Source of the DNA: Centipeda flueggei ATCC 43531
GTDB taxonomy: Bacteria; Bacillota; Negativicutes; Selenomonadales; Selenomonadaceae
Direction: 5' to 3'
Assembly: GCF_000160695.1 (NCBI RefSeq)
Contig: NZ_GG694007.1
Span: 280,911-344,910, forward strand
DNA length: 64,000 nt
The notes beneath the pieces were generated by a model. The model saw nothing but the letters and a program-made list of their open reading frames with translations, was not told where the DNA came from and made no database searches. This document shows positions 18,784 through 61,524 of this stretch, piece by piece. Numbering within the stretch: position 1 is the stretch's first letter; each line of letters begins with the position of its first letter. Made by a program: the position numbers and the translations under genes.

Positions 18784-18841
18784 GGATTTCCATGCGTTGT
18801 ATTCTTTTGGCGTATTTTATGATCTATATGGAGGAACAACG

Positions 18842-19534
18842 ATGAAGCAATTTCTCGATCAACTCGCTGTGCCGCATGGGGACTGGACGGCGCTTTTCTC
18901 TGCCTGCCTCGGCAAGATGATGTGCGTTCAGCAAGCCTGTGCCGAGTACGTGGTGAAAAACGAGGACTGGAACATCGACCTTGGGCGTGGCGTTATATTC
19001 TTCGGCATGCGGGAGTATCCGATTCAGTTCATTGGAAGTGAGTCCAAGTCAAGCGGCACATGGCTATGGGGATGGGAAAACATCAATCACTTCCCCGACG
19101 AGATTATCCGGCTTGCCAACGAGACAAAGGCATGCGGCGAGGAATGGCATCTGGAGGCCCTGACAGCAGCAGAGTTCGATCTGAACGATATCTATAACGG
19201 TCACAACCTCTCCATCGTCACCTGCGGACTGGCGGACGGATACGCCTACTATCGCTGCCCACATAACGGCGGCGCATTCTTCGTCGGCCTGTCGGATGTG
19301 CCGGATGCGGTCTTTGATCCCGTTGATTTTTCGCGCTTTATTTCGACGGTGTCACAGTGCATCCAGCAGTTCGATGTGGATCACCGCCTCCTGGTTGAGG
19401 GATTCCTGCGCTGGAATCAGACGCCGTACGAGTGGCACGGGTCACGCATCACGGCACATTTTACGCAGGATCTCATCATCGCCTTTGAGGATGTGGATGG
19501 CTCACAGCGCATCTCCGCCATGCGGAGTGTTTGA
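18842..19534 (+). CDS. DUF6882-like cytoplasmic protein of unknown function
   Basis: 230 residues from ATG 18842, after GGAGGAAC. There is no signal peptide or membrane segment. The GTWLWGWENINHFPDEI segment (Trp-rich, then a Pro-containing helix start) resembles DUF6882-family proteins, and several aromatic-rich strands follow. No catalytic motif is evident. It stands alone between the B1 toxin module and a strong terminator. Such proteins often lie among accessory or polymorphic-toxin-associated genes, but the function here is unknown. Confidence 0.65.
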   Translation: MKQFLDQLAVPHGDWTALFSACLGKMMCVQQACAEYVVKNEDWNIDLGRGVIFFGMREYPIQFIGSESKSSGTWLWGWENINHFPDEIIRLANETKACGEEWHLEALTAAEFDLNDIYNGHNLSIVTCGLADGYAYYRCPHNGGAFFVGLSDVPDAVFDPVDFSRFISTVSQCIQQFDVDHRLLVEGFLRWNQTPYEWHGSRITAHFTQDLIIAFEDVDGSQRISAMRSV

Positions 19535-19584: not shown

Positions 19585-19729
19585 ATGCCGTATACGTGTT
19601 TCTGTGATCGTGTAGTTTTCTCAAAAGAAGATATTGTATCTATTGAAATTATATTTTTTCTGTGGTATTTCTAGTATAATCAATGAAATTATAAATGCTC
19701 TCTCTTTTCTGCAAAAGGAAGTGATCGCT

Positions 19730-20512
19730 GTGTCTTTATCCATCATTCAAAAAATGAACGAAATGCTCCTCACTGAGATGCCGGAGTATCGTGCGAAGGC
19801 GGCGGAGGTCGGTGTGTCGGGAGAGCAGCAGCGGCGGCTTCTGCGTGCTCTGATGAATGTGCGTCCGCCGCGTCCGCTTTCGGGAGACTTTCTGGCGCTG
19901 CAGGATCAGCTGCTCTCAGCGGAGTGCGAGGCACGCGGCGTGGTGGATGTGACGACGCTCCCATCCGCCGCCTCTGATGCGCGTATTGCCCTCTGGCAGG
20001 GCGACATTACGCGGCTCAATGCGGATGCCATCGTAAATGCGGCGAATTCTGCTCTGCTCGGCTGTTTTATCCCCTGTCACCGCTGCATCGACAATGCGAT
20101 TCACTCGGCGGCGGGGCTGCAGCTGCGCGCGGCATGCGCTGCGCTGATGGAGGAGCAGGGACATCCAGAGGAGACGGGAACTGCGCAGATCACGGAGGGG
20201 TACAATCTCTCTTCGCGGCACGTCATCCATACGGTCGGACCGATCGTCAGCGGTGCTCTGACAGATCGTCATCGGGCGCAGCTCGCCTCCTGCTATCGTT
20301 CCTGTCTCTCCCTTGCCGCGGAGCATGGTCTCAGGAGCATTGCGTTCTGCTGCATCTCGACGGGGGAGTTTCACTTTCCCCGTGCAGCAGCGGCGGAGAT
20401 CGCCGTGCGTGAGGTGCGGGATTTCCTCACGCGTGATACGTCCATAGAACGTGTCGTTTTCAACGTGTTCAAGGACGAGGACCGGCACATCTACGAAAGG
20501 CTTTTGTCATGA
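19730..20512 (+). CDS. zinc-dependent macrodomain ADP-ribosyl hydrolase
   Basis: 260 residues from GTG 19730, after AAAAGGAAG. A helical N-terminal region (1-90) precedes a macrodomain with IALWQGDITRLNADAIVNAAN. The zinc-site pattern CFIPCHRCIDNAIHSAAG follows, then RHVIHTVGPIV and CCISTGEFHFPRAAAAEIA. This is the Zn-macrodomain class that removes ADP-ribose added by SirTM sirtuins. It overlaps the sirtuin gene by ATGA. An AT-rich promoter region with TATAAT precedes it. Confidence 0.9.
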   Translation: MSLSIIQKMNEMLLTEMPEYRAKAAEVGVSGEQQRRLLRALMNVRPPRPLSGDFLALQDQLLSAECEARGVVDVTTLPSAASDARIALWQGDITRLNADAIVNAANSALLGCFIPCHRCIDNAIHSAAGLQLRAACAALMEEQGHPEETGTAQITEGYNLSSRHVIHTVGPIVSGALTDRHRAQLASCYRSCLSLAAEHGLRSIAFCCISTGEFHFPRAAAAEIAVREVRDFLTRDTSIERVVFNVFKDEDRHIYERLLS

Positions 20513-21399
20513 CGGAATCCATCACACGCATCACCGATGCGCTCCGCGCGGCGGACTGCGTGCTCATCGGCGCGGGTGCAGGACTCAGCACCTCAGCGGG
20601 CTATGACTATGCGGGTACGCGGTTTATGACGTATTTCGCAGATTTTCACGAGCGATTCGGTATGACGGACATCTACAGCGGGGGCTTTTATCCCTTTCCG
20701 TCACGCGAGATTTTCTGGGCGTGGTGGAGCAGGAGCATCTACGTCAACCGCTATGCGCCGATACCGGAGAGCGATGTCTATCCGAATCTCCTCCATCTGG
20801 TTCGTGAAAAGGATTATTTTGTCCTGACGACGAATGTCGATCATGCCTTTCAGCGGACGGGGTTCGATAAAAAGCGTCTCTTTTACACGCAGGGGGATTA
20901 TGGTCTCTTTCAGAGCAGTCAGCCGGCGGGGGGTACGGCGCATCGCACCTATGACAACGAGGATGCCGTACGTGCGATGCTCACGGCGCAGGGATTCACG
21001 TTCGCTGCCGACGGGGCGCTCATCGTCTCCGCGCCGAATGCGCTGCGGATGGAGATCCCGACGGAGCTCATTCCCCGCTGTCCCGATGATGGTGCGGAGA
21101 TGACGACGAATCTGCGTGCAGACTCCTCCTTTGTCGAGGATGCGGGATGGCATGCCGCCGCCGCACGCTGTACGGACTATCTTGCGCGGACGGAGGGGCG
21201 GCGGACACTCCTCCTGGAGCTCGGCGTGGGGATGAATACGCCCGGCATTATCAAGTATCCGTTCTGGCGCATGACGGCAGAGCGCACGGATGTGACACTC
21301 GTGACGGTGAGCTGTGATGCGTATGTGCCGAAGGAGATTCGTGATCGGAGTATTGTGCTTGGCAGAGATATTGGAGCGGTGCTGAGAGAGCTTGTTTGA
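20509..21399 (+). CDS. class M sirtuin (SirTM), protein ADP-ribosyltransferase
   Basis: 296 residues. The NAD-binding start VLIGAGAGLSTSAGYDYAGT and the TTNVDHAFQRTGF segment define a sirtuin. The altered motif around TTNVDH, the region RCPDDGAEMTTNLRAD in place of a canonical four-Cys zinc finger, and the pairing with a Zn-macrodomain mark the SirTM class. SirTM ADP-ribosylates lipoylated GcvH-L in organisms with the full operon (GcvH-L, LplA2). Neither partner gene is adjacent here; the next gene starts after a terminator and belongs to another system. Either the target lies elsewhere or this pair has a different substrate. Confidence 0.88.
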   Translation: MTESITRITDALRAADCVLIGAGAGLSTSAGYDYAGTRFMTYFADFHERFGMTDIYSGGFYPFPSREIFWAWWSRSIYVNRYAPIPESDVYPNLLHLVREKDYFVLTTNVDHAFQRTGFDKKRLFYTQGDYGLFQSSQPAGGTAHRTYDNEDAVRAMLTAQGFTFAADGALIVSAPNALRMEIPTELIPRCPDDGAEMTTNLRADSSFVEDAGWHAAAARCTDYLARTEGRRTLLLELGVGMNTPGIIKYPFWRMTAERTDVTLVTVSCDAYVPKEIRDRSIVLGRDIGAVLRELV

Positions 21400-21480: not shown

Positions 21481-21509
21481 TTGTCCCATGCGTGCGCCTA
21501 TGCTATACT
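21481..21509 (+). promoter_or_regulatory. promoter of the AAA+ operon
   Basis: TTGTCC (21481-21486), 17 bp, TATACT (21504-21509). A roughly 110-base very AT-rich leader follows, reaching to the first gene of the five-gene operon. Confidence 0.6.
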
Positions 21510-21627
21510 ATTTTCTATATCATCAACGGGATATGCATATTCCATAATACAATAACTTATAATATGAAATTACACATAATAAAATAAAATAAATTATAAA
21601 TAATAACACAAAATATGGGGAGAGAAG

Positions 21628-23349
21628 ATGAGCGATACCATTTACATCGAGCCGGATCTGTCGTATCTGGAGGATCGCCTGGATGCGCTCGGCGACTTTG
21701 TCGGTGCGGCGCAGTCGGAGATCCATGCCGTCGGGCGAAGTGTCGATGATCTGCGTGGGGACGTAGAGACGCTGACGCAGGATTTTCATACCTATGCGGC
21801 AAAACAGGAGCTGACGAACCGCATCCAGCTCGCGGAGATCCGTCTGGTGAAGCTGCGGCAGGAGATCGAGCACCGATTCGGCCACTATGCGGAGATCCGC
21901 CGCATGGCGCGCGGCATTCTGGAGGCAAATGATCTCGCGGTCGTGCGGCAGGATACGCTGCGTGCGGCGGCAGAGGAGCTCATGCTTCGTGCGCCCGGCT
22001 ATTGGCTGGCACCGGCACTCGTTGCGCTCGCGGCGTGGATCAGCGACGAGGAGGAGGTCGCAAACCGCGCATGCGCGGAGGCACTGCACCGCGATGATGA
22101 GCGAACGTCACTCTTTTTTGCACTGGTCTGCCGCCGTTTCGGCCGGAAAGAGACGAGCCTGCACTGGCTGCAGCGCTACTTTGCCGGACTGGATGGGGGG
22201 GCGCTTGACCGCAAGGCGGGCATCGTCATCGATGCCTACGTGTCGGGGCTCCTCGGACGCGATGCAGACGGGCTCATCCGCCGCCGGATCGACGGCTGGA
22301 TCGATCGGTTCAGCAGGGTATATAGTTTTGCCGATGCACAGGAAAAACGCTGGTATGAGGCGATGAAGGCAATGTGTCCGGATCCGCCCGCAGAGGGCAG
22401 TTTTCCCTATCTGAGAGTGCACACCGACAGATCGGTGTCGGAGGCGCTGGAGCGTACGCTCTCGTGTGCGCGTCTCTATGAGAAACTCAGCACACATTTT
22501 CAGCAGATCGTCGCGCAGACGGCGCCGCCCCGCACGCTGAAACAGCAGCTGGACAGCATCCTGGAGCGTCTGGCCGCCGACTTTGATGCGGCGGAAAAGC
22601 CGCTGCACATGGAGTCGATCCTTGAGAAGCTGGTCATCCATGAGGGCGGCAGGGAGGATCGTGCGCGCAGAATTTTAGCGGAGAAGGTAAAGGCCTTTGA
22701 CGAGCGGCGCGACTTCATGCAGCTCCTGTCGGATGCGGCGATGCACCCGCAGGAGATGCAGGCGAGCCCCGCGCTGCAGAAAATGGCGCTTGCCCTTGGG
22801 CGTGATTCGATTCTTTCCGCCTTTCGCGATATTGTCGCGGAGAATCGCGCCGCCATCCCGCAGACCATCAAATTTAGGATTCTTGCATTTGATAACGAGA
22901 CGGAAGACGGATCCAATGAGGAAAAACTGCTGCGGTTATTTGTCACGTGGAACGATCTTAAGCGCATGATCCGCATGCGCCCCTATGAGCTGTCCTCACA
23001 GGAAAAACTCTTTCGATGGATATGGCTCCTCCCCGTGCTGCTCGGTCTCTACGGCGGGGAGGTATACTGGACGGCGCTCGGCATCGCCGCCGGCGCGGTG
23101 ATCTTTAACGCGTACATCAAGGCGAAGAAACGCATGGACAGCATCCATACGAGCATTACGGAGGAGTATCAGAAACAGGAGGAGGAGGGCAAGCAGATGC
23201 TCCGCGGGGTGATCGCGGAGATCGTGGACTACCGCACGGAGATCGCGCGGCTCGATGCGGAGAGCGAGAAGGTCATTGACTTCCTGCAGGGACTGAACCC
23301 GGCGCAGTTCATAGGAAGCGCGGACGGCAGCCGCCGTGTGCGGGTGTGA
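21628..23349 (+). CDS. coiled-coil membrane protein of the AAA+ operon (unknown)
   Basis: 573 residues, not recognised. Residues 1-85 are predicted coiled coil (heptads through YLEDRLDALGDF and LAEIRLVKLRQEIE). Residues 95-430 look wholly helical and repeat-like, rich in Arg/Asp/Leu. Residues about 465-492 form one membrane hairpin or two short membrane segments (WIWLLPVLLGLYGGEVYWTA). The final 80 residues are again coiled coil (EEYQKQEEEGKQML). First gene of the operon, after GGGGAGAAG. The architecture suggests a membrane-anchored scaffold for the AAA+ protein encoded three genes later. No catalytic motif was seen. Confidence 0.6.
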   Translation: MSDTIYIEPDLSYLEDRLDALGDFVGAAQSEIHAVGRSVDDLRGDVETLTQDFHTYAAKQELTNRIQLAEIRLVKLRQEIEHRFGHYAEIRRMARGILEANDLAVVRQDTLRAAAEELMLRAPGYWLAPALVALAAWISDEEEVANRACAEALHRDDERTSLFFALVCRRFGRKETSLHWLQRYFAGLDGGALDRKAGIVIDAYVSGLLGRDADGLIRRRIDGWIDRFSRVYSFADAQEKRWYEAMKAMCPDPPAEGSFPYLRVHTDRSVSEALERTLSCARLYEKLSTHFQQIVAQTAPPRTLKQQLDSILERLAADFDAAEKPLHMESILEKLVIHEGGREDRARRILAEKVKAFDERRDFMQLLSDAAMHPQEMQASPALQKMALALGRDSILSAFRDIVAENRAAIPQTIKFRILAFDNETEDGSNEEKLLRLFVTWNDLKRMIRMRPYELSSQEKLFRWIWLLPVLLGLYGGEVYWTALGIAAGAVIFNAYIKAKKRMDSIHTSITEEYQKQEEEGKQMLRGVIAEIVDYRTEIARLDAESEKVIDFLQGLNPAQFIGSADGSRRVRV

Positions 23350-23358
23350 GGTGGTATC

Positions 23359-23625
23359 ATGAGCAAGAGAAATGTTTTCCCGTCATTTGCGGAGGAAGTG
23401 CGTCAGAAACAGCTTGCCGCGAGGCATGCGGAGATGGATGCCTTCGCCGCTGTACCTGCGGCATCAGACAAGGCAGAGGATGGAGTCACGCATGGTGCGG
23501 CGGCGCAGATGAAACGCCTTTCCTCTGCTGCGGCGGACAGGGCAAAGGATGAGGTGCTTGCGGCGGGACTGCCCGCGTGGAACCTGGAGCCGCCGTCTAC
23601 CCCGGTGCGCAGGAGGCGGCAGTGA
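23359..23625 (+). CDS. small charged protein of the AAA+ operon (unknown)
   Basis: 88 residues starting MSKRNVFPSFAEEVRQKQLA, Ala/Lys/Glu-rich and probably disordered, with a basic end (STPVRRRRQ). It starts 9 bp after gene 1 and its stop overlaps the next start (GTGA), so the three genes are tightly coupled. No domain was recognised. It could be an adaptor peptide. Confidence 0.55.
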   Translation: MSKRNVFPSFAEEVRQKQLAARHAEMDAFAAVPAASDKAEDGVTHGAAAQMKRLSSAAADRAKDEVLAAGLPAWNLEPPSTPVRRRRQ

Positions 23626-24071
23626 ATACGCCGCCCATGACGTATGCGGCATGGGTGACGGTACTGGATCGTCTTGCCGCGGGGATGGAGGATGAGGCCG
23701 TGCTGCATGAGATGCGTGCGGGTTCACTCGCATGGCAGAGCGGCGTTGCCGAGCGGTTTACACAGCGGTTCTCCGATGCGGTGAATGTGCGCATCAACCG
23801 TGCGTCGGATCATTTTTCCCGAGCGATGGGACATGCGTCGGATGTATCCGCGACGATCGGTGCGCTGCTTTCTCTGCGGCGGACGCTCCGCTTTCTCCGC
23901 GATGTTGTCGATATCCCCGCCCTCCCTGCGGAGACGCGCGGGAGTTTTATCGCGCTCGTGCAGGACGCGGCAGACCGTATGCAGGAGAGTCTGGAGGACT
24001 CGGCGCAGCGTGACCGCAGCGGGCGGATGGCGAGCATCGTGCGCGGACATCGCGTGAATATGCTCCGCTGA
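23622..24071 (+). CDS. helical protein of the AAA+ operon (unknown)
   Basis: 149 residues from GTG 23622, six bases after AGGAGG. It is all-helical by eye (MTYAAWVTVLDRLAAGMEDE, then RTLRFLRDVVDIPALPAETR), with no membrane segment or known motif. The GTGA overlap with the preceding gene argues for one functional unit. It ends 60 bp before the ATPase gene. Confidence 0.55.
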   Translation: MNTPPMTYAAWVTVLDRLAAGMEDEAVLHEMRAGSLAWQSGVAERFTQRFSDAVNVRINRASDHFSRAMGHASDVSATIGALLSLRRTLRFLRDVVDIPALPAETRGSFIALVQDAADRMQESLEDSAQRDRSGRMASIVRGHRVNMLR

Positions 24072-24131
24072 AATGCTTGCGGGGAGGACACAGTCTGTAA
24101 TAGAATCCGATATGATGATACGGAGGTTTTG

Positions 24132-25703
24132 ATGAGCGCACGAAATGAATGCAAAGAGCTCCTTGCGCGCTATGCGACGGCGCGCATTCCCTTTATCGCG
24201 CTTCATACCGTGGAGCGTGCGCGGGCACTGCATCTGCTGAAGGAGACAGCGGAGGAGATCGCCCAGCCCTTTTACATCCATACGCTCTCCAAGGGGGTCT
24301 ATGACCTCACGACGGAAAAGGTGCTGTGCGACGATAAATCCGTCTATGGCGCAATCGACTTTATGGGCGAACAGATGAAACACCGCGCCAATCTCACGCT
24401 CGTTCTTACGGAGATCCCCGACCTTTCGTCGGACACGAGCGACGCGCGTCAGCTGCTCGACCTTGTGACGCTTGCGAACGAGACGGGCGGGCAGATCATT
24501 GTCCTCACGGCGTCTGCCGTCTGGAACCGCCTGCAGCGGCTCGGTCTGACACTGTCCCTGCCCCTCCCGGACGAGGAGGAGATGGAACAGATCGTGCGCG
24601 GCTACATCGACGACTATCGGCGTGAGATCGCGGTGGAATGGGACGCGGCGGACATCCGCGAGGCGGCGTCCATCCTCAGCGGCGTCACGGCGATTGAAGC
24701 GGAGAATGTCATGGCGGCACTCGTGGCGAAGCGTTCCATCCGCAAGGAGGATATGGACGAGGTGCGCACGGCAAAGGATCGCCTTTTCTCCGACATCTCG
24801 GGACTGGAGAAGATCACGGTCGATGCGGGGGCGTGCGATGTCGGCGGCCTTGCGGGGCTGACGGAGTGGCTCGGGGAAAAGCGTCTCCTCTTTACCGCTG
24901 AAAAGCGCAGTATCCTGCGGGAAAAGGGACTCAAGTCGCCGCGCGGCATCCTCCTCGTCGGCGTGCCGGGCTGCGGCAAATCGCTCTCCGCAAAGGCGAT
25001 TGCGGCGCAGTGGAAGCTGCCGCTCTACCGTCTCGACTTTGCGACAGTGCAGGGCAGCTACGTCGGGCAGACCGAGCAGCAGCTGAAGGATGCGCTCACG
25101 ACGGCGGAGAACGTCGCGCCGTGCATTCTCTGGATTGATGAGATCGAAAAGGGGCTTTCGGGGGCGGGCAGTACGAATGACGGCGGCGTCTCCACGCGCA
25201 TGGTCGGGCAGTTCCTTTTCTGGCTGCAGGAATGCCGCAAGCAGGTCTTTGTCGTGGCGACGGCGAACGATGTGTCGATGCTGCCGTCGGAGCTTCTGCG
25301 GCGCGGGCGTTTCGATGAGCTTTTCTTCGTCGATCTGCCGACGGCGGAGGAGCGTCATGACATCCTGCAGCTCTATATGCGCAAGTATCTCGGACTGGAT
25401 TTCGCGGGGGCGTTTGCCGATACGCTCGTCGCCATGACGGACGGCTTTACGGGGGCGGATCTTGAGTCCACCGTGCGTGATCTCGCCTATCGCGTCATCG
25501 CGAATCCCGCCTTTCGTCTGACGGAGGAAAATCTGCGCGCGGCGTTCGGCAACGTTGTCCCGCTCTCTGCCACGGCACCGGAGAAGATCGCCGCCATCCG
25601 CGACTGGGGCCGCGAACGCGCCGTCCCAGCGAGCGGACGTCCCATCGGTGCAGCAGATCTGCCGCCCTCTGCCGAGAAGCGCACACGCCGTGTGTTGGTA
25701 TAA
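24132..25703 (+). CDS. Ycf46/Vps4-like AAA+ ATPase
   Basis: 523 residues from ATG 24132, after CGGAGG. The N-terminal part (1-240) resembles the Ycf46 type: an apparently degenerate first ATPase-like domain (FIALHTVERARALHLL, NLTLVLTEIPDL). The AAA+ core has Walker A GVPGCGKS (277-284), Walker B CILWIDEIEK (331-340), sensor VATAND (375-380) and arginine finger RRGRFDE (390-396). The pore-loop region is FATVQGSYVGQTE. COG0464-type proteins remodel or unfold partners as hexamers. The likely clients are the four proteins encoded with it. Confidence 0.85.
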   Translation: MSARNECKELLARYATARIPFIALHTVERARALHLLKETAEEIAQPFYIHTLSKGVYDLTTEKVLCDDKSVYGAIDFMGEQMKHRANLTLVLTEIPDLSSDTSDARQLLDLVTLANETGGQIIVLTASAVWNRLQRLGLTLSLPLPDEEEMEQIVRGYIDDYRREIAVEWDAADIREAASILSGVTAIEAENVMAALVAKRSIRKEDMDEVRTAKDRLFSDISGLEKITVDAGACDVGGLAGLTEWLGEKRLLFTAEKRSILREKGLKSPRGILLVGVPGCGKSLSAKAIAAQWKLPLYRLDFATVQGSYVGQTEQQLKDALTTAENVAPCILWIDEIEKGLSGAGSTNDGGVSTRMVGQFLFWLQECRKQVFVVATANDVSMLPSELLRRGRFDELFFVDLPTAEERHDILQLYMRKYLGLDFAGAFADTLVAMTDGFTGADLESTVRDLAYRVIANPAFRLTEENLRAAFGNVVPLSATAPEKIAAIRDWGRERAVPASGRPIGAADLPPSAEKRTRRVLV

Positions 25704-25721
25704 TAGATAAGGAGTTTTGTC

Positions 25722-26213
25722 ATGCCGCGCCCCATGCTGCATCGTTCCTCCGCAACGGAGACCCATACGAATCCGCTCAGCCTCATGTCAGCACCGAAAG
25801 CAAAGGAGATGACCGAAGAACAGAAGACCGAGATATATCATCTGCTGAAAAAGCAGCGCTCCAAGGCATATATGGATGCGATTCATCAGCTGGATGCGGG
25901 CGGACATGTGATGAATGCCGCCGCGTGCGAGGCAATCCGCGCCGCCGTCGCCGCAGAGTTCCAGGCGCCGGGCGAGATCAGCATACTCCCCATCGGTATC
26001 GTCGCAAAATGCTGTCTCGGCGGTACATATGAGGTGCATACGTTCAGCATGTCGGGCGGGATCATCGAGCACTATCAGAAGGGAGAGCCATTGCCGGACG
26101 GCATGGAGCGCGCCCGTGCCCTCGCGATGCACGGCGCCTACGCGTTCATCGAGGTCTATTCCGACATACTCCGTGTGATCGGGAAGGACGGAAGCGTCGC
26201 CGTTGTGCGGTGA
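25722..26213 (+). CDS. last protein of the AAA+ operon (unknown)
   Basis: 163 residues from ATG 25722, after GGAG. A flexible polar start (about 1-28) precedes a helical segment (TEEQKTEIYHLLKKQRSKAY) and a mixed alpha/beta part with ISILPIGIVAKCCLGGTYEVH and a hydrophobic helix AHGAYAFIEVY-like near the end. No family was recognised. The 18-bp spacing to the ATPase gene supports a common function. Confidence 0.55.
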   Translation: MPRPMLHRSSATETHTNPLSLMSAPKAKEMTEEQKTEIYHLLKKQRSKAYMDAIHQLDAGGHVMNAAACEAIRAAVAAEFQAPGEISILPIGIVAKCCLGGTYEVHTFSMSGGIIEHYQKGEPLPDGMERARALAMHGAYAFIEVYSDILRVIGKDGSVAVVR

Positions 26214-26280
26214 ATCTATCTGTATTTCCCTGAATATGTATCTTTTCGCCGAGGGATTGCCAAGCGGCGGAAAGGAGATA

Positions 26281-26333
26281 AAAGAAGGACGATGGTATGA
26301 GGATGCAGCCCTCGCACGATCGTCCTTCTTTTA
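26281..26333 (+). terminator. terminator of the AAA+ operon
   Basis: AAAGAAGGACGAT / ATCGTCCTTCTTT stem with a 25-base loop, followed by TATTG. It ends the operon and isolates it from the sialic-acid cluster. Confidence 0.75.
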
Positions 26334-26346
26334 TTGCCGTTTTTGT

Positions 26347-26412
26347 TAAGGAAGCACGGATAAATTCGGCACGACCATCTTAGGGAAGTACGGATCAACT
26401 CAGCATGGCCGA
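26347..26412 (+). mobile_element. two tandem MITE end fragments
   Basis: TTAAGGAAGCACGGATAAAT and, 37 bp later, TTAGGGAAGTACGGATCAAC are both degenerate left ends of the MITE family, without the central hairpin or the right end. They are a decayed insertion scar in the 350-bp gap before nagB. The rest of that gap is terminator, operator and promoter. Confidence 0.5.
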
Positions 26413-44228: not shown

Positions 44229-44392
44229 AGGAATCGCTGATAAAATGAAGTCCCTTGGATTGGTGCAGATTTTTTGTCCTGTCAAGGAGACAAACCGGAC
44301 GCATAGCAGAGGCTATGTGGAGGATTTGTCGACACAGACAGGGCGGAAAAGATGTGCCAAGATGATGGGCTGAATTTATCAGTGTTTCCTAA
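44226..44392 (-). mobile_element. MITE-like element, copy 2 (subtype 2, inverted)
   Basis: A 167-bp element beginning TAAAGGAATCGCTGATAAAA and ending TTTATCAGTGTTTCCTAAA. The central hairpin is of the second subtype (CCTGTC...GACAAACCGGACGCATAGC...GCTATGTGGAGGATTTGTC...), matching the copy at 61356 in opposite orientation. Confidence 0.72.
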
Positions 44393-44394
44393 AT

Positions 44395-44447
44395 AAGGGA
44401 CTGCTGTACGAAGTTTGCAGCTTCGTGCAGCAGTCCCTTTCGTTTTC
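44395..44447. terminator. terminator between the lipoprotein gene and malic enzyme
   Basis: AAGGGACTGCTGTACGAAG / CTTCGTGCAGCAGTCCCTT: a 19-bp nearly perfect stem, with TTCGTTTTC on the plus side and only a short T run on the minus side. It serves convergent transcripts. Confidence 0.78.
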
Positions 44448-53583: not shown

Positions 53584-53605
53584 CGTTTTATCAGTGATTC
53601 CTTAG
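53584..53605 (+). mobile_element. MITE right-end fragment
   Basis: GTTTTATCAGTGATTCCTTA is a right terminal repeat without its element. It adjoins the next complete copy, indicating nested or tandem insertion beside the A2 antisense promoter. Confidence 0.55.
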
Positions 53606-53771
53606 GGAAGCACTGATAAATTCAGCACTGCCATCTTAGCGCATCTTTTTTGCCCGCTTTTCGTTAGCAAATCCTCCACATAGCCTCTGCTATGCGTCCG
53701 GTTTGCTGCCTCAATCGGGCGAAAAAATCTACGCCAATCTGACGGACTTCATTTTATCAGCGATTCCCTAG
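53602..53771 (+). mobile_element. MITE-like element, copy 3 (subtype 1)
   Basis: A 170-bp element, TTAGGGAAGCACTGATAAAT to ATTTTATCAGCGATTCCCTA. Its central hairpin is nearly identical to the copy at 601 (GCCCGCTTTTCGTTAGCAAA). The right end supplies the last codons and stop of the DUF457 gene on the minus strand. Confidence 0.75.
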
Positions 53772-54203
53772 AAAACAACTTCCTGCATAGACAATGCCGA
53801 TACATACAGCTGTGAATAGGTATTCCCGTAGTGAGCCGACGGTAAAGAGCCGTATCCCGATCTTCTGCGTCGGGAGAACGGCGGGCACCTTGCCGCAGAC
53901 CGCATCCTCCGCGATGTGGAGGAGTGCGCCGAGGAAGACCCATAGGAGCACCGTGAGGAATATCCTGCTCCCGATGTACGTTTCGCCGTGCAGGAGCGCA
54001 CCGATGAGGGCGAGATAGAGCATCGGCCAATGCGACCAGCCGCGGTGACGGCTGCGCCATGTACGCCATCCGACACTGCCGGGAGAGCCTTCCACCTTGT
54101 CCGGCAGGACGGCGCCGACGCATGCCGCCGCTGCCGCGAGCGGATCGCTGCTCACTGCGTAGGCAATCGTGCCCGTGAGTGCAGCGTGCGATACCCATGT
54201 CAT
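53757..54203 (-). CDS. DUF457 (YdjM-type) membrane protein, metal-dependent hydrolase family
   Basis: 148 residues with about four membrane segments. Family features are ALTGTIAYAVSS, AAACVGAVLPDKVEG, SRHRGWSHWPMLY and LHIAEDAVCG, with conserved Asp/His. The last four codons (LGNR) and the TGA stop lie in the terminal repeat of a MITE, so the native C-terminus has been replaced. No partner gene is evident, although the Rrf2 gene lies upstream on the same strand. Confidence 0.82.
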   Translation of the reverse strand: MTWVSHAALTGTIAYAVSSDPLAAAAACVGAVLPDKVEGSPGSVGWRTWRSRHRGWSHWPMLYLALIGALLHGETYIGSRIFLTVLLWVFLGALLHIAEDAVCGKVPAVLPTQKIGIRLFTVGSLREYLFTAVCIGIVYAGSCFLGNR

Positions 54204-61318: not shown

Positions 61319-61355
61319 TGTGGGTGTCATGGTTTTTTTCGGCATTCGCGCAGAT

Positions 61356-61524
61356 TTAGGGAAGCACTGATAAATTCAGCACCGCCGTCTTAGTACATCT
61401 TTTTCCCCCTGTCTGTGCCGACAAATCCTCCACATAGCTTTTGCTATGCGTCCGGTTTGTCTCCTTGACAGGACAAAAAATCTGCACCAATTCGACGGAC
61501 TTCATTTTATCAGCGATTCCCTAA
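61356..61524 (+). mobile_element. MITE-like element, copy 4 (subtype 2)
   Basis: A 169-bp element, TTAGGGAAGCACTGATAAAT to CAGCGATTCCCTAA. The central hairpin (CCTGTCTGTGCCGACAAATC...TCCTTGACAGG) matches the inverted copy at 44226. Its right end overlaps the stop codon of the GGDEF gene that begins at 63239. Confidence 0.75.

Follow-up and report, generated by a model that had tools for sequence, protein, structure and literature searches.

The 64,000-nt stretch of Centipeda flueggei ATCC 43531 analysed here, referred to as the window (contig NZ_GG694007.1, positions 280,911 to 344,910), carries a five-gene operon, g1 to g5, built around a Ycf46-like AAA+ ATPase. All five open reading frames (ORFs) lie on the forward strand and are intact, as first described, in an ORF check of the window. 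The first gene, g1 (21628..23349), encodes a 573-aa protein made up of an N-terminal coiled coil, a helical-repeat domain, a β-hairpin, a hydrophobic hairpin and a long C-terminal helix; g2 (23359..23625) encodes a variable protein of 88 aa; g3 (23622..24071) a helical protein of 149 aa, overlapping g2 in a GTGA; g4 (24132..25703) the 523-aa ATPase, with a degenerate N-terminal half and an AAA core at residues 273-401; and g5 (25722..26213) an α/β protein of 163 aa. The start of g4 is the ATG at 24132, with the TTG at 24129 as a possible alternative. The intergenic distances are 9, -4, 60 and 18 bp in order, in agreement with the single unit of short gaps or overlaps described in the first-pass annotation, which had also proposed one promoter and one terminator. 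The terminator is confirmed as a strong intrinsic hairpin with a T-rich 3′ arm at 26274..26338 on the forward strand (minimum free energy -37.8 kcal/mol, z -7.6), overlooked by the consensus scan because its arms are too widely spaced. The promoter stands in part: one well-placed putative sigma-70-type site is present at 21481..21509 on the same strand (TTGTCC, 17 nt, TATACT, with an extended -10), however the scan's tally of 1 such site is no excess over the 2.3 expected on average by chance, so it is the appropriate position that speaks for this assignment.

Among the five proteins, g4 is the only one recognised by Pfam, NCBIfam, PADLOC and PHROGs; its core matches Pfam AAA (7.3e-30), and its best family is PHROG 8638 (2.8e-98), covering residues 121-501. 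The Walker A and B, sensor and arginine-finger motifs had been described as intact, and an 18-sequence alignment bears this out, with nearly all motif positions invariant. These comprise Walker A GVPGCGKS (residues 277-284; 24960..24983, forward strand), a pore-loop-1 Tyr-Val-Gly (residues 310-312; 25059..25067, forward strand) in which Y310 and G312 are invariant and V311 nearly so, the Walker B DE at 336-337, sensor-1 N379 and an arginine-finger RRGR at 390-393. Plasmid-borne Ycf46-like ATPases share 31-36% identity with g4 in alignments over 93-98% of its length, and this coverage, seen against plasmid and cyanobacterial homologues, indicates the two-part architecture of Ycf46-like proteins. 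Members of the g4 clade are 53-87% identical to the window's copy, and the next ATPases reach 39% at most; judged by these alignments, g4 is a Ycf46-like AAA+ ATPase forming a clade of its own. Some of the plasmid-borne relatives adjoin genes for DUF1257 (Ycf35) and/or DUF2997. No second member of the g4 family was found in the window's genome, the sole other match being an AAA core of 30% identity that is probably FtsH-like.

The AlphaFold2 model of g1 (mean predicted local distance difference test (pLDDT) score 82.4, predicted template modelling score (pTM) 0.64) begins with a single long N-terminal helix, predicted as a coiled coil (residues 12-103; 21661..21936, forward strand), followed by a helical-repeat region (~127-265), a β-hairpin (414-425) and a long helix (479-554). 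Hydropathy across 15 homologues indicates a hydrophobic membrane hairpin at residues ~457-497 (22996..23118, forward strand), which is weak in the window's copy (Kyte-Doolittle value 1.53); most homologues have a more hydrophobic one, with values reaching 2.5. Model and hydropathy together support the membrane and coiled-coil character first claimed for this protein. Homologues are 18-95% identical, and a divergent subgroup (G191, G290, G195 and G204) shows no N-terminal coiled coil but additional transmembrane-like segments; the Hsp70/DnaJ neighbours of the operon in G290, considered as part of the system, were read as an ordinary dnaK-dnaJ locus. In Pfam, g1 has only sub-threshold coiled-coil matches, and a SlyX match (E 0.002), below the cut-off, was ascribed to coiled-coil similarity. 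Foldseek comparison of the model with the PDB and with viral models returned nothing at E ≤ 0.001. Several of the matches are AhlB/SmhB/MakA pore-formers, one of them with a probability of 0.96; homology to AhlB/SmhB/ClyA-fold pore-formers was not accepted, as the best E is 0.065 and the TM-score 0.21 over the query.

The smaller partners g2, g3 and g5 have no Pfam match, and a profile search of PDB sequences with g1, g3 and g5 returned designed coiled coils and annexins, nothing credible. The initial statement that the four partners of the ATPase match no recognised domain is upheld in all four of the databases named above. In g2, length and sequence vary among operons while a C-terminal motif is near-invariant: motif comparison finds LPAWNLEPPSTPVRRRRQ (23569..23622, forward strand; [LF]PxW[DNS][LI]xPPxxxVRR) in 20 of 21 operons, and in the loci of other Ycf46-like ATPases it is absent save for two poor look-alikes. 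Some versions of g2 carry a CxxC...CxxC zinc-ribbon-like pair ahead of this motif. In g5, residues C97, H106, H117 and E144 are invariant, and the AlphaFold2 model (mean pLDDT 74.7) consists of three helices followed by an α/β unit, with the first ~26 residues disordered; Foldseek comparison with the PDB gave no match at E ≤ 0.001. Structure prediction had been suggested for all five proteins and their complex; models were built for g1 and g5, and neither resembles any PDB fold.

Searches covering the class, the family and the phylum, together with plasmid, phage and viral collections, found the five-gene set in 22 loci, 16 of them in Negativicutes. The other six are in another Bacillota family (G515, in which g4 lies in two frames), Fusobacterium vincentii, the Streptococcus satellite phage Javan368, a plasmid of Comamonas antarctica, two plasmids of Komagataeibacter nataicola counted as one locus, and an IMG/VR contig. 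Two arrangements occur: g5 comes first (g5-g1-g2-g3-g4) in G515, the IMG/VR contig, Comamonas and Komagataeibacter, and last (g1-g2-g3-g4-g5) in the others. The plasmid and phage records matched by g1 are the identical five matched by g5, each with a g4-clade ATPase; conversely, g1, g3 and g5 were not found in 107 loci of other Ycf46-like ATPases (E ≤ 0.01), and no profile links were detected between them and the partners of other Ycf46-like modules (E ≤ 0.1). The genes are inherited together, as the pairwise distances of g1, g3, g4 and g5 are correlated (r 0.68-0.86), and the recurrence of all five across phyla means that the unit exceeds chance. The operon had been put forward as conserved and uncharacterised, and both points held, the comparison across genomes yielding the 22 loci and literature searches finding no description of it; failure of the genes to co-occur, or membership of the partners in a known system, had been named as findings that would speak against this, and neither was found. 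Sequence comparison points to a module in which an AAA+ ATPase of the Ycf46-like kind is combined with new partners. Relative to the copy in G107, g4 is 87% identical with a ratio of nonsynonymous to synonymous substitution rates (dN/dS) of 0.12, compared with 51, 62 and 49% identity and dN/dS of 0.37, 0.31 and 0.20 for g1, g3 and g5. A conserved motor with fast-changing partners would be expected of conflict systems, and equally of systems with changing clients.

Judged by its distribution, the operon is an accessory, horizontally moved module. Of 121 family genomes, 9 carry g1, as do 2 of the 399 sampled across the phylum, and four congeners (G120, G037, G091 and G097) have an empty site in which the Sir2-like gene that stands before the operon is followed directly by nagB. 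The operon is decayed in G112 and G185, and the reading frame of g1 is disrupted in G056 and G181; errors of draft assembly are possible in these copies. The Streptococcus and Fusobacterium branches of the ATPase tree nest within Negativicutes, indicating horizontal transfer; the Komagataeibacter copies are on small plasmids, one adjoining an IS3 transposase, and in Javan368 the operon lies at the distal end of a record that terminates exactly at the g5 stop codon. Patchy, mobile, decaying and carried on mobile elements, the operon has the genomic signature of defence, which fits other accessory functions too.

A basic-hydrophobic C-terminal tail is shared by g1 (SRRVRV; 23329..23346, forward strand) and g4 (RTRRVLV; 25680..25700, forward strand). 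Defined as [RK][RK]x0-1[IVLM] within the last 15 residues, it occurs in 19 of 20 g1, 21 of 21 g4, 3 of 21 g3 (all three proteobacterial-type) and 0 of 21 g5 proteins, compared with 19 of 168 flanking ORFs; the stricter end R-x-h-x-h, with h hydrophobic, is present in 11/20, 16/21, 3/21 and 0/21 respectively, against 5/208 flanking ORFs. Outside the g4 clade, R-x-[IL]-[DE]-h is the terminus of many Ycf46-like ATPases, and several of their neighbours have near-identical tails: GGRTIDI on the ATPase accompanies, on two neighbouring HHH proteins, GRFIDF and ARFIDF at locus L073 and GRFIDF and ARVIDF at L072, GGRRIDF on the ATPase of L070 stands next to GGGRTLDL, and on an IncA/C plasmid (L068) the ATPase tail GRKLAIGD is joined by KRKIILD on two neighbours. 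Counted over same-strand neighbours within 3 kb of Ycf46-like ATPases, the tail occurs in 20 of 677 proteins vs 16 of 1336 elsewhere (Fisher p 0.007) and its strict form in 3 vs 0 (p 0.038), a modest effect, for a pattern set after the ATPase tails were seen, though before the partner tails. The tail may serve as a docking or recognition peptide, and because g5 never carries it, g5 would be the best candidate for its receptor in the operon. A more far-reaching proposal, possible but doubtful, is that the operon represents a mobile membrane AAA+ conflict system of an undescribed class, in which ATPase and partners are tied by the common C-terminal peptide R-x-hydrophobic-x-hydrophobic, the same rule operating in unrelated Ycf46-like modules and the tail acting as a general key to Ycf46-family targets.

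The explanation we tentatively prefer is that the five genes encode one mobile, membrane-anchored AAA+ remodelling complex, with conflict or defence as its most likely purpose; the machine is well supported, while defence is the favoured but putative role. The part of clients, given to g2, g3 and g5 in the first-pass annotation, is likewise putative, as is the envelope role suggested there. Such a multi-protein machine would sit at the cytoplasmic face of the inner membrane, anchored by the hydrophobic hairpin of g1, with the coiled coil and helical-repeat domain of g1 facing the cytoplasm. g4 would form a ring and could use its Tyr-Val-Gly pore loop to thread or remodel a partner. The R-[RK]-hydrophobic tails of g1 and g4 (and of g3 in Proteobacteria), together with the LPxWDLxPPxxxVRR end of g2, may be docking peptides for a common site, with g5 as the candidate receptor. 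In anti-phage or anti-plasmid use, g1 and g3 could detect infection, or react to it, at the membrane, with g4 switching the state of the complex.

Several observations weigh against this explanation. PADLOC-DB (2023) gave 0 matches for g1, g2, g3 and g5, and none of the five proteins shows a nuclease, NADase or other classical effector domain. The flanks hold mostly housekeeping genes, and the operon does not appear to lie in obvious defence islands; PADLOC applied to 78 flanking proteins returned few single-member matches, several of them generic (kinases, DUF1848), a raw tally that gives no sign of enrichment. The predicted folds of g1 and g5 match nothing solved. No att repeat was found in the Javan368 record, and since that record also ends at the g5 stop codon, the operon is not claimed as satellite cargo. 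In Selenomonas felix, the orthologous site retains an intact g1 (95% identical) from which g2-g5 are cleanly missing, and this persistence of g1 without its own partners argues against a simple toxin-antidote arrangement. The pairwise dN/dS of the solo g1 is 0.106, a value that mostly reflects the time before g2-g5 were lost, and a second operon elsewhere in S. felix, whose g2 region is without the LPxW motif, still supplies g3-g5.

The intact solo g1 of S. felix also counts against g1 as a membrane-permeabilising, alpha-pore-forming-like effector that is kept inactive by g2, g3 and g5 and triggered by g4. The long helices, β-hairpin and hydrophobic hairpin of g1 would suit such an effector, as would its Foldseek matches to pore-formers; however, these matches have E ≥ 0.06 and TM-scores of ~0.2 over the query, and the proposal is highly improbable. 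It is rather unlikely, though less so, that this membrane AAA+ machine serves the envelope or the general stress response, by protein quality control or membrane maintenance, and has spread through its benefit under stress and not against phages. Synechocystis Ycf46 (slr0374) lies in the stress-responsive operon slr0373-slr0374-slr0376 and affects carbon utilisation (PMC7496141), g1 with its hairpin anchor and coiled coils fits a membrane scaffold, and the flanks of the operon do not appear defence-rich; set against these points are the pronounced patchiness, seen even among congeners in the form of empty sites and decayed copies, the wide horizontal spread, and partners that diverge fast compared with the ATPase. 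It seems improbable that the operon encodes a chaperone, powered by the ATPase, for assembling or maturing one particular cargo such as an enzyme or a secretion component, in which g2 would be the adaptor and g5 would bind the cargo. Such a chaperone would agree with the gene neighbours of other Ycf46-like ATPases, which are DUF2997, often DUF1257 or 4Fe-4S proteins, or a phage-baseplate-V gene, and with the loading of payloads into injection systems by Pvc15-type AAA proteins (PMC11495950), but no constant additional cargo gene adjoins the five genes across loci, and no sheath, tube or baseplate genes were found.

Directly upstream of the insertion site, the window holds two genes at 19634-21399 that are likely a protein ADP-ribosylation pair: one for a macrodomain protein-ADP-ribose hydrolase (PRK04143, 7e-102) and, after it, the Sir2-like gene, which is probably of the SirTM type. 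A DUF6882 protein (Pfam 4e-27) is encoded at 18818-19534, upstream of the macrodomain gene. In S. felix, the stretch that takes the place of the macrodomain/Sir2 region, ahead of the operon site, contains an array of clustered regularly interspaced short palindromic repeats (CRISPR) at L014 6115-6756, with nine 37-bp repeats (GTTTCAATGCCGCACGCAGCATTGTGTGTGTTGGGAC) and two duplicated spacers. An interspersed repeat of ~175 bp, resembling a miniature inverted-repeat transposable element (MITE), is present in the window at 597-768, 44230-44397 (reverse strand), 53600-53773 and 61354-61523, with fragments at 26346-26405 just past the operon terminator. Its terminal inverted repeats are GGGAA-CACTGATAAA... 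and ...TTTATCAGCG-TTCCC, and it has no Rfam match. Many copies are found in Selenomonas loci, and one lies between g1 and g2 of the second S. felix operon (L052 8490-8657).

In comparing the operon with known systems, the AAA+ core of g4 matches models of IetA from the IetAS anti-phage system (8.9e-33); however, the match spans residues 253-475 only and scores 91 bits against an NCBIfam cut-off of 510, and the operon encodes no counterpart of the subtilisin (serine protease) partner IetS. Extracellular contractile injection systems with Pvc15/Afp15 also place an AAA ATPase within a multi-gene machine, Pvc15 being described as loading their payload (PMC11495950), but sheath, tube and baseplate genes are absent in and near the operon. 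On a Treponema succinifaciens plasmid (L066 6058-9551), a Ycf46-like ATPase adjoins a phage baseplate assembly protein V and a 4Fe-4S protein, which suggests that some members of the family serve contractile injection systems. The MoxR/vWA ternary NTP-dependent conflict systems (VMAP) are multi-component, AAA+-based and accessory (PMC10907252), and the operon resembles them by analogy only, as its ATPase belongs to another AAA+ clade and no vWA or MoxR protein is among the five. If its role is defence, the module would add a multi-protein membrane system missing from PADLOC-DB 2023. The likeness to Ycf46-like ATPases (cyanobacterial and plastid Ycf46; PHROG 8638) extends over nearly the full length of g4, and the operon differs from the Ycf46/DUF1257/DUF2997 modules in its wholly different partner set, with neither DUF present. 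The Ycf46 family of AAA+ proteins is old and conserved widely, with members in plastids and cyanobacteria as well as on plasmids and in phages; four new protein families in a compact module across at least three phyla offer a tractable system in which the substrates of the ATPase are probably encoded alongside it, and through the shared C-terminal tails, recognition by the ATPase or its receptor can be probed directly.

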